Of a stretch of DNA of 64,000 nt, positions 11,944 through 14,553 are shown piece after piece. The stretch's first letter is position 1, and each line of letters begins with the position of its first letter. Position numbers and translations under genes: made by a program. This DNA comes from Thiothrix unzii. GTDB taxonomy: Bacteria; Pseudomonadota; Gammaproteobacteria; Thiotrichales; Thiotrichaceae. The notes beneath the pieces are model-generated. The model saw nothing but the letters and a program-made list of their open reading frames with translations. It was not told the DNA's origin and ran no database searches. Location: positions 3,472,001-3,536,000 of the forward strand of contig NZ_CP072793.1 in NCBI RefSeq assembly GCF_017901175.1. Direction: 5' to 3'.

Positions 11944-12744
11944 CTAGCTCAGTGTCAGGTAATGCACCTCGGTTTCCAACGTGCCATCAGGATGCAGCGC
12001 GATTTCGCGCCATGCCGGACGTAAGTGGTCAAACGCAAACACCGGATGCGTGGGTTTGAGTTGAATGCAGGTGGCAGGTGTGCCAAACACCGGAATCACG
12101 CGCCCGCTGGCAGTGCGGTATTCGCCGTTAAACGCTTGATGGATATGTCCGTTAAACACCGCTTTGACGCTGTTAAACGCGCTGACGATTTCCCAAAAGC
12201 GTTGTTTTTGTTGTAGCCCCATGCGATCCATCCACTCGCTGCCAATGTCGATGGGGTGATGATGCATGAGGATAATGGCGAATGCCTGCTCAGGAAGAGC
12301 GCGTAATTGCTGTTCCAGTTGGGTAAATTGCGCTTCATCCAGATGCCCGTCGGGTTTGCCCGGTGAATGGGTATCCAGCAACAGCACGTGCCATTGCCCA
12401 AACGCTACGTGCGTGGGGAGTGTCACCTTGCCGCTTAAATTTGCCTGCATGAGTTCGGGGATGTCGTGATTGCCGGGTAAAACGTATACCGGGCGCGGAA
12501 AGTCAGCCAGTAACTCATTGGTGCGTTGGTAGGTTTGCGCGGTTTCCTCTTGCGCTAAATCCCCGGTGATAAACAGTGCCGCATGATCCGCTGCTGTCGT
12601 TTGCAGGTGGTCTAATACTGCGCGTAACGATTGGTTCGGGTACACCGTTTCCTTTGACCATTCCAGCGCAGTGGAATCATCAGGGTAACAATGGCTGTCG
12701 GAAATTTGCCAAAGGCGCACGGTCGAGGATGCAGCGGTCGTCAT
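11944..12744 (-). CDS. cpdA: 3',5'-cyclic-AMP phosphodiesterase CpdA
   Basis: A 266-residue class III cyclic-nucleotide phosphodiesterase of the calcineurin-like metallophosphoesterase superfamily. The full metal-site set is visible in order: D-x-H in ISDSHCYPDD (about residue 16), GDLAQEE (about residue 61), PGNHD (about residue 91), HHHP (about residue 162) and GHIHQ (about residue 202). The C-terminal GTPATCIQLKP and WREIALHPDGTL blocks align closely with E. coli CpdA. It hydrolyses cAMP to AMP and so tunes CRP-type regulation. The ATG sits at the edge of a 380-base stretch without coding capacity that it shares with a divergent structured RNA. Confidence 0.92.
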   Translation of the reverse strand: MTTAASSTVRLWQISDSHCYPDDSTALEWSKETVYPNQSLRAVLDHLQTTAADHAALFITGDLAQEETAQTYQRTNELLADFPRPVYVLPGNHDIPELMQANLSGKVTLPTHVAFGQWHVLLLDTHSPGKPDGHLDEAQFTQLEQQLRALPEQAFAIILMHHHPIDIGSEWMDRMGLQQKQRFWEIVSAFNSVKAVFNGHIHQAFNGEYRTASGRVIPVFGTPATCIQLKPTHPVFAFDHLRPAWREIALHPDGTLETEVHYLTLS

Positions 12745-12832
12745 GGTTGGATAACGCTATCTTGATGGATAAGCACCTAGCGTAAAACAAAATTTTTAAA
12801 CGCGCCATTAACGTCATGTCATCTAACCGTTT

Positions 12833-12861
12833 GAGTGCTAAATCCGACCGTTAATGCACTC
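12833..12861. repeat. Inverted repeat upstream of the candidate RNA promoter
   Basis: GAGTGC at 12833-12838 and GCACTC at 12856-12861 are perfect inverted repeats with centres 23 bp apart, immediately upstream of a predicted -35 element (12865). This is a possible binding site for a dimeric regulator, or chance; there is no further support. Confidence 0.25.
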
Positions 12862-12864
12862 TAG

Positions 12865-12894
12865 TTGAGCGGATTGCGATTCACCGCCTATACT
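12865..12894 (+). promoter_or_regulatory. Sigma-70 promoter of the candidate structured RNA
   Basis: TTGAGC (12865-12870), an 18-base spacer and TATACT (12889-12894), close to the sigma-70 consensus. A start near 12901 is expected. It drives the non-coding segment 12901-13080 and, by read-through, the EamA transporter gene. Confidence 0.6.
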
Positions 12895-12900
12895 CTTCAG

Positions 12901-13080
12901 CAGGTAAGACGTAAGTTTTACCGTTTAGCAGCCACAGTAGGGTACAAGCATTGATGGTTACAAGGTAAGCCCTGAAACGCATGGATGCGACTGTTCGGAA
13001 CAAGCGTACCCGAAGGCGAATAAAAAAATGCAACTCTCTCCTCACTATCTCAAGCCCCGTTCCCCCTGACGGGGTTTTTT
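12901..13080 (+). ncRNA. Candidate structured small RNA or leader, no known family recognised
   Basis: A 180-base segment bounded by a sigma-70 promoter and an intrinsic terminator, with no plausible ORF. Visible helices are a 5' hairpin 12903-12922 (GGTAA/TTACC with further A-C/G-T pairs), and a closing helix GGGTAC (12940-12945) with GTACCC (13006-13011), extended by GC/GC. Inside it are three hairpins: 12957-12972 (GGTTAC with GTAAgCC), 12978-12989 (CGCAT-GG-ATGCG) and 12992-13002 (TGTT-CGG-AACA). The outline resembles a cloverleaf, but the middle arm has no 7-base loop, so it is not a tRNA. It is either an independent sRNA or an attenuating leader of the transporter gene, whose GTG lies 45 bases after the terminator. 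Confidence 0.5.
13055..13080 (+). terminator. Intrinsic terminator of the structured RNA
   Basis: CCCCGT (13055-13060) and ACGGGG (13069-13074) form a strong stem with an 8-base loop followed directly by six T (13075-13080). It lies inside the apparent N-terminal extension of the transporter reading frame, which argues that this extension is not translated. Confidence 0.9.
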
Positions 13081-13083
13081 ATT

Positions 13084-13097
13084 TGTGGTATACCACA
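13084..13097. promoter_or_regulatory. 14 bp perfect palindrome between terminator and transporter start
   Basis: TGTGGTATACCACA is a perfect 14 bp palindrome four bases past the T-run and 28 bases before the GTG start. It could be an operator for a dimeric repressor or a small hairpin on read-through mRNA near the translation start. Function is not known. Confidence 0.4.
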
Positions 13098-13124
13098 CGC
13101 CTTTATCATCACCGAAACACGCCC

Positions 13125-14006
13125 GTGCAACCATCAACGTCGGTTATTTCTGCCTATTTGGGCGTAATTCTTATCTGGTCAACCACGCCATTGGGCATCA
13201 AATGGAGTGGGGAAGAGGGTATCAGTTTTCTGTTCGGATTAACGGCGCGGATGGCGATTGGTTGCGTGTTAGCGATTGTGGCGGTGATGTTGTTGCGGAT
13301 TCCTATGGGGCTTTCGCGCAAGTCCGTAACGGCTTACGGTGCGTCGGCATTGGGTATCTATGTGGCGATGTTGTGTGCGTATTGGGGGGCGAAGTACATT
13401 CCTTCGGGGTGGGTGGCGGTCATTTGGGGCACATCGTCGGTATTTACCGGAATTTTGGCGCAGCGTTATTTGGGCGAACCGTTGGGGTTAAACCGTATCC
13501 TTGGGTTGTTATTGAGCGTGGGTGGCTTGGCAACTATTTTTTTGCGCAGCCAAGAAGCCGGTGAGCAAGCCTGGTTGGGCGTGTTGCTGGTGTTGGGCGG
13601 GGTGTTGGGGCAATCCTCAACCGCAGTGTGGTTGAAATGGTTGGATGCGAAAGAGCATGGCTTGATGATGACCGCCAGCGGTTTGCTGCTGTCATTGCCG
13701 TTTTTCACGCTGACTTGGTGGATTTTTGATGGGCAATGGCCGCAGCAGATACCGTTACGGGCTGGGTTGTCGATTGTGTATCTGGCGGTGTTTGGCTCGT
13801 TGTTGGGGTTCTCACTATACTATTTTTTAATCAACCGTATTGAGGCGTCACGGGTGGCGTTGATTACGCTGGTGACTCCGGTGACTTCGTTGTTGATTGG
13901 ACATTGGTTAAACCACGAGCCGTTGTCGCTGACGGTGTATCTGGGGACTGGCTTGATCCTTGCGGGGCTGGCGAGTTTCCAGTGGGGCGGGCGGTGGTTG
14001 CGTTAG
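13125..14006 (+). CDS. EamA-family (DMT superfamily) transporter
   Basis: A ten-helix inner-membrane transporter of the drug/metabolite superfamily made of two EamA repeats (about residues 8-140 and 148-288). Visible features are SAYLGVILIWSTTPLGIKW in helix 1, VIWGTSSVFTGILAQRYLGEP at the end of the first repeat, and LVTPVTSLLIGHWLNHEPL in the second. The substrate cannot be told; family members export amino acids, metabolites or nucleotides. The frame is open from 12981, but a terminator lies at 13055-13080, so I start at GTG 13125, giving 293 residues, normal for the family, with only eight or so residues before helix 1. Confidence 0.85.
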   Translation: MQPSTSVISAYLGVILIWSTTPLGIKWSGEEGISFLFGLTARMAIGCVLAIVAVMLLRIPMGLSRKSVTAYGASALGIYVAMLCAYWGAKYIPSGWVAVIWGTSSVFTGILAQRYLGEPLGLNRILGLLLSVGGLATIFLRSQEAGEQAWLGVLLVLGGVLGQSSTAVWLKWLDAKEHGLMMTASGLLLSLPFFTLTWWIFDGQWPQQIPLRAGLSIVYLAVFGSLLGFSLYYFLINRIEASRVALITLVTPVTSLLIGHWLNHEPLSLTVYLGTGLILAGLASFQWGGRWLR

Positions 14007-14106
14007 CTTTGGGTACTTTTTCACAGAATCACGCGCGGTTTCGCAGTACCTTTATCCCAAGCCTTAGCGAGAGGCGAAGCTAACCAAAGCAGAGGGAGAA
14101 ATCACT

Positions 14107-14553
14107 ATGAAACGTTCCAATATCATTGCAAGTCTGTTGTTTTTACTGAGTTTAACGGGGTTTTATGCTGCCCCGGCCGCCGCGCTGTGTGTAACGCCGG
14201 GTGAAGCGGGGGCATGGACAAATGTGGATGCTAATACTCGTGGCATCGTTCGGGCTAATGTGCGTTTTCAGTGTCAGGATCAGATCTTGAATGGGCAACC
14301 TTATCCACCGGGCGAACCGTTTTACATTAAATTGTACGGTTCTTGCCATCCAACCGCGTGTGAGTGGCAGGAAGTCGGCGCGAATAGCATCGCCGGTGGT
14401 TGGTTGCGTGGCACGATTGATCAGGGTTTTGCCAAACGTGACATCCGTTTCAAGCGTTTGGCTGACGGGCGGTTACGGGTGATTATTTACACCGATTTCC
14501 GCGATCCCGGTCGTCGTGACTACCGTTCAGACGAGCTGTTTAACCGCAGTTAA
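14107..14553 (+). CDS. Small secreted Cys-containing protein, unknown function
   Basis: A 148-residue exported protein with a signal peptide (residues 1-27, cleavage after AAPAAA). The mature part has four Cys (LCVTPGE, FQCQD, SCHPTAC) that could form two disulfides, and it ends in an Arg/Asp-rich beta-like segment (RVIIYTDFRDPGRRDY). I do not recognise the family. A good ribosome site (GAGGGAGAAATCACT) precedes the ATG. It stands alone, about 150 bases upstream of the ABC exporter, and need not be related to it. Confidence 0.7.
   Translation: MKRSNIIASLLFLLSLTGFYAAPAAALCVTPGEAGAWTNVDANTRGIVRANVRFQCQDQILNGQPYPPGEPFYIKLYGSCHPTACEWQEVGANSIAGGWLRGTIDQGFAKRDIRFKRLADGRLRVIIYTDFRDPGRRDYRSDELFNRS

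Follow-up and report, generated by a model that had tools for sequence, protein, structure and literature searches.

The stretch of DNA analysed here, a window of 64,000 nucleotides from Thiothrix unzii (genome G000; numbers of the form 12901 are window coordinates), raises the question of whether positions 12901-13083 hold a real RNA gene and how such an RNA would act. Comparison among relatives suggests that these positions very probably represent a real, unlisted and genus-restricted family of small RNAs (sRNAs) of an ordinary kind, and that the gene is very probably free-standing and so far found in some Thiothrix only. The features of the locus are as follows.

12827 to 12833, + strand: upstream box 1, CCGTTTG (CCRTTYR), 60-62 bases before CCTAYACT in 5/5 copies.
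12848 to 12854, + strand: upstream box 2, CCGTTAA (CCGNTAA), 21 bases after box 1, in 4/5 copies.
12887 to 12894, + strand: -10 element CCTATACT (CCTAYACT), in 5/5 copies.
12901 to 13083, + strand: putative sRNA transcript of ~183 nt, its ends placed from the promoter and terminator; kept in G003.
12903 to 12922, + strand: 5' hairpin of 8 bp, with four substituted stem positions in G003, all pairing.
12931 to 13017, + strand: variable structured 5' domain, closed by GCC/GGC (12931-12933/13015-13017) and GGGTAC/GTACCC (12940-12945/13006-13011).
12948 to 12988 and 12992 to 13002, + strand: inner arms of the 5' domain in the favoured fold (predicted folds).
13015 to 13021, + strand: invariant GGCGAAT, identical in 5/5 copies, G007 included.
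13034 to 13043, + strand: C/U-rich tract CTCTCTCCTC, the proposed seed, complementary to a Shine-Dalgarno-like sequence; mean predicted unpaired probability 0.98.
13052 to 13083, + strand: intrinsic terminator with a CCCCC loop (13062-13066) and a T run; stem 13052-13077, in 5/5 copies.

The preliminary description had proposed a new sRNA, outside the known families and equipped with a promoter and terminator of its own; the comparison among relatives supports this proposal. A search against Rfam 15 found no family reaching its gathering score in the window or in the loci of four relatives, and lax thresholds yielded sub-threshold matches only, four of them up to E 10. The promoter-like site TTGAGC-18-TATACT (12865-12894) and the intrinsic terminator are both present, each as the only call of its kind when 12700-13150 was scanned; each call is weak evidence alone, since shuffles average 0.5 promoters and 0.6 terminators. 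It is because of conservation, and not of fold energy, that we judge the RNA to be more than chance.

A DNA search of 40 genomes, its own included, gave matches in the own genome and in G003 only. Between these two copies, identity is 83.4% in the neighbouring cpdA, 66.7% in the upstream spacer, 72.5% over 12901-12940, 95.8% over 12941-13011, 93.3% over 13012-13054 and 96.6% in the terminator, with the branched domain as conserved as the seed. A covariance model built from the two copies (R1) was searched on 63 genomes of the order. Six genomes had a match at E<=1 and four represent the family, including G002 (39.5 bits) and G014 (34.5 bits); G006 (22.1 bits) was rejected as terminator-like, and G005 (17.7 bits), with a C/U-rich stretch before a terminator, is a possible member. 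At the gpmI flank of all 16 genomes of the genus, R1 adds G007 (19.6 bits, E 0.0064). Over 30 gpmI loci it returned six matches up to E 10, of which four are the family (G003, G002, G014 and G007) and two were set aside as weak (L067, E 0.88; L089, E 4.4). Over 369 genomes of the class there were six matches at E<=0.1, the own genome included, and the three that were read out of the five others (L058, L059 and L060) were taken as gene-end terminators.

A second model (R2) was built from the 3' module of the five copies in G000, G003, G002, G014 and G007. It found one strong copy in each of these genomes among the 63 (E 3e-12 or better), scores that lean towards the five copies because the model was built from them. 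Matches at E<=1 occurred in 45 genomes, comprising the five of the family and 40 with weak matches only; of ten weak places inspected, seven follow closely on reading frames, as ordinary terminators do, and two fall inside a reading frame. The tenth is in a genome of another genus of the taxonomic family (G065), where locus L127 carries at ~1001-1069 an intergenic C-rich stretch and a terminator (R2 31.7 bits, E 2.7e-4), which is possibly a distant relative or a chance match. Clear copies are present in 5/16 genomes of the genus and in 0/47 others of the order; no clear copy was detected in 11/16 genomes of the genus by R1, R2 and the gpmI-flank search. Filters were stricter whenever a search covered more than 40 genomes, and absence from a genome is therefore no proof.

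Upstream of cpdA, inspection by eye of 600 bases in each of 14 other genomes of the genus showed no copy, and BLAST over 21 loci revealed none either. A near-match to the A-rich stretch of the sRNA, GAATAAAAAAATGCAATTCTC, was observed around 1501-1521 at a similar location in three genomes of the genus (L025, L026 and, one base off, L047); it was dismissed as a copy of the RNA, as no such RNA was seen around it by eye. Plasmids and phages showed no DNA similarity, and an exact 24-mer of the core had no match in genome_contigs. The pattern of the 3' module was found in four stretches of genome_contigs and in none of the viral contigs. Three of these stretches, from two Thiothrix records (UBA5583 and STA_22) and one marine-rock MAG, contain exact copies of the G014, G002 and G007 RNAs; the fourth, from Dysgonomonas, looks unrelated by eye.

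Sequence comparison identifies the conserved gene unit, present in five genomes, as the -10 element, GGCGAAT, the C/U-rich tract and the terminator with a C-rich loop, joined in 4/5 copies by the tandem upstream box. The tandem box CCRTTYR-N14-CCGNTAA lies 60-61 bases upstream of the -10 box in G000, G003, G014 and G007, and G002 presents box 1 with a poorer second box (CCGCCTG) at a spacing one base longer. The boxes stand in spacers that have diverged. In the four copies, 10/14 box columns are invariant against 6/46 other columns, but the boxes were picked after looking and therefore constitute a pattern and no proof. We assign the boxes to the promoter of the RNA because the gene on the divergent side is not constant, being cpdA in two copies and lemA in three. 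The -35-like TTGAGC (12865-12870) is by eye not common to the other copies, and the CCTAYACT box may resemble an RpoS-type -10 box. A regulon of the tandem box is not claimed: the five genomes hold eight exact matches, four of which are this promoter, and the reversed pattern gives 17.

Downstream, an A-rich stretch is common to all five copies, as is a terminator of the form CCCCG...CCCC...GGGG with a C-rich loop. Over the five copies, 40/40 cells of the terminator stem are paired and double-sided changes affect 2/8 pairs; among 500 shuffles, seven reach the covariation score, seven the paired percentage and 110 the two double-sided pairs. The C/U tract is present in 5/5 copies, but its letters differ between species. 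Its mean predicted unpaired probability is 0.98 in G000, 0.96 in G003, 0.62 in G014, and 0.74 in both G002 and G007.

The 5' part is far more variable. The distance from the assumed start to GGCG is 118 bases in G000, 117 in G003, 135 in G014 and 107 in G002, with almost nothing in G007, which has no folded 5' domain and an RNA of probably ~67 nt. Sequence conservation of the domain does not extend to the diverged copies, and G014 and G002 depart widely in both sequence and length. The long-range closing helices ahead of GGCGAAT differ as well, G002 and G014 having CCAGTGC/GCACTGG and CCGGAATG/CGTTTCGG. A closing duplex as good was found in 305, 381, 80 and 15 of 1000 shuffles for G000, G003, G014 and G002, respectively, and only that of G002 stands out, because so few shuffles match it. 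GGCGAAT is kept in G007, which lacks the domain, and therefore probably matters beyond closing it; one guess is that it serves as a second pairing site.

Several elements of the fold proposed in the preliminary description are present in the window, namely the 5' hairpin and the helix 12940-12945/13006-13011, whose ensemble probability is about 1.0. The four-helix cloverleaf built on them did not hold: over its 72 bases it reaches -12.9 kcal/mol, 8.8 kcal/mol worse than the -21.7 of the best fold. Of its three inner hairpins, 12992-13002 alone is likely (ensemble probability 0.85), the other two falling below 0.001. In the favoured fold, GCATT (12948-12952) pairs with GATGC (12984-12988), consuming the second hairpin. 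Folding alone likewise fails to bear out the statement that such a structure is unlikely by chance. The whole RNA has a z of -2.06, with 6/200 shuffles equally good; of 1500 stretches of 183 bases drawn at random from the window, 37% fold as well as the RNA, and a multiloop appears in the best fold of 34% of 3000 random stretches of 102 bases. Taken by itself, the 118-base 5' domain does better, with a z of -2.82 and 0/300 shuffles as good.

Compensatory changes give a small positive signal: one pair of the 5' hairpin has changed on both sides between the close copies, and the terminator has its two double-sided pairs over the five copies. The 5' hairpin differs between G000 and G003 at four positions in three pairs, 4/4 of which still pair, the double change being T-A to C-G. 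The letters of the three proposed inner hairpins are identical in both close copies. Of the 51 pairs of the whole fold, 43 are unchanged between G000 and G003, five changed on one side, one on both sides, one is broken and one falls in a gap; the broken pair depends on the placement of an inserted base.

The neighbour genes of the RNA unit differ among its five genomes. The RNA of G003 has cpdA on one side and, on the other, the counterpart of window gene 14107 and then gpmI; the EamA gene is missing. The window and G003 diverge immediately behind the terminator and align again beyond EamA. The EamA gene (13084-14011), with the palindrome TGTGGTATACCACA at its left edge, is thus an insertion relative to G003 or was lost there. 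This 14-bp palindrome, which had been listed with the RNA, is present at 13084-13097 but is not part of the RNA and is missing from G003. Window gene 14107-14553, whose counterpart adjoins the sRNA in G003, encodes a protein of 148 residues that matches no Pfam family at E 0.001 and, by eye, seems to carry a signal peptide. In both G002 and G014 the RNA is on the gpmI side of lemA; convergent gpmI follows it in G002, and a chalcone-isomerase-like gene separates it from gpmI in G014. In G007 it lies at the gpmI flank, followed by a chalcone-isomerase-like gene, with lemA (by eye) as the other neighbour. The gpmI gene, near the RNA in these four genomes, is at C2:2999762-3001165 in G000, ~0.48 Mb from the RNA, which indicates that the locus was rearranged.

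These arrangements bear directly on the earlier suggestion that the RNA is a riboswitch or ligand-sensing attenuator controlling EamA. The RNA does stand about 40-45 bases before the EamA reading frame in the window; however, G003 has the RNA without EamA, owing to an insertion or loss of that gene immediately behind the terminator, and three further species (G002, G014 and G007) have other downstream genes. With EamA not downstream in 4/4 other copies, the attenuator is contradicted by the relatives and scarcely credible. It is also highly improbable that the locus is a short protein-coding gene or leader peptide instead of an RNA. An ATG frame from 12981 is open into EamA in the window and a reading by hand from 13028 gives MQLSPHYLKPRSP, but indels of 1 and 2 bases shift the frame in the near-identical DNA of G003, and by eye no Shine-Dalgarno sequence precedes either ATG. 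The three indels between the close copies (2, 1 and 2 bases) speak against a frame that would span the whole RNA.

The structured domain might alternatively titrate CsrA (RsmA-like) through GGA motifs in hairpin loops, in the manner of CsrB/RsmZ. The CsrA/RsmE consensus is CANGGANG. The genome does possess a CsrA gene, and CATGGATG matches this consensus in G000, G003 and G014, giving one such site in 3/5 copies. CsrB/RsmZ sponges, in contrast, carry many GGA in hairpin loops, whereas GGA is not enriched in the Thiothrix sRNA: the counts are 2, 3, 3, 3 and 0 in G000, G003, G014, G002 and G007, against 2.8, 2.8, 3.1, 2.7 and 1.0 expected at 1 in 64, and the matching GGA of G000 is paired, not looped, in the favoured fold. 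As each copy has 0 to 3 GGA, roughly what 1 in 64 predicts, we do not place the RNA among these sponges, and we regard a CsrA-titrating function as improbable. Action through the 5' domain, by protein or ligand binding or by a fold switch exposing the seed, and not by base pairing alone, strikes us as rather unlikely. The branched domain is 95.8% identical between two species against 66.7% for the spacer, and everything up to GGCG folds better than the shuffle mean in all four copies that have it (z -2.8, -1.8, -1.5 and -1.7), which would fit such a role; yet in G014 and G002 the domain varies widely in sequence and length, and G007 lacks it but retains the 3' module.

Our preferred reading is that the gene probably encodes a trans-acting, base-pairing sRNA with its own, probably activator-controlled promoter. 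The locus behaves as the free-standing genes of Hfq-dependent trans-acting sRNAs do, as sequence comparison places a -10 box and a terminator in 5/5 copies with differing downstream genes; an Hfq gene is present in the genome. A transcription factor at the tandem box would activate synthesis of an RNA some 65 to 200 nt long, and Hfq would bind the A-rich stretch and U tail of this RNA. The tract CTCTCTCC is the proposed seed for base pairing with target mRNAs: the CUCUCUCCUC tract, perhaps aided by the C-rich terminator loop, would pair with Shine-Dalgarno regions and thereby block translation of the targets. The folded 5' domain would be an accessory, for stability or for masking and exposing the seed, that is absent in one lineage.

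Sites complementary to the tract (GAGGAGAG-N3-10-ATG) number 5 to 14 per genome vs 1 to 5 for the reversed pattern across the five genomes, an excess that is uninformative because any good ribosome-binding site would give it. One site of G014 is the antisense strand of the RNA itself. G000 has six sites and G003 five, and only two are common to both; these precede a 463/464-residue protein (sub-cut-off radical-SAM match) and a 426-residue DUF1501 protein.

By analogy, the nearest counterpart in design appears to be LhrC of Listeria, whose C/U-rich motifs, in a single-stranded stretch and the terminator loop as in the Thiothrix sRNA, are described as pairing at the Shine-Dalgarno sequence (PMC4132741). 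The likeness is one of design only: the LhrC account gives three redundant motifs and five copies (PMC4132741), whereas the Thiothrix sRNA has one copy per genome and two C/U-rich places. The best sub-threshold Rfam match, RF02278, a toxic sRNA of Betaproteobacteria, is described with a C/U-rich stretch followed by a terminator (PMC7011215), as found here. It scores 22.4 bits over 13035-13083, far under the gathering score of 50, and we do not assign the RNA to this family, whose model of 64 positions is without a counterpart of the 5' domain.

Among the papers that literature searches on small RNAs in Thiothrix returned, none, as judged by titles and the opening of abstracts, concerned small RNAs of this genus, and no paper came up for riboswitches. 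It is conceivable, though quite unlikely, that the family is modular, with lineages attaching, rewriting or dropping the folded 5' domain on a conserved promoter and seed-terminator module, and with the domain acting as a ligand- or protein-controlled cap that gates the seed. If this were true, one antisense regulator would take different inputs in different species. The naturally long and capless forms permit a direct test of what the 5' domain adds to an sRNA, and a defined sRNA gene with a candidate operator offers a handle on post-transcriptional control in Thiothrix.
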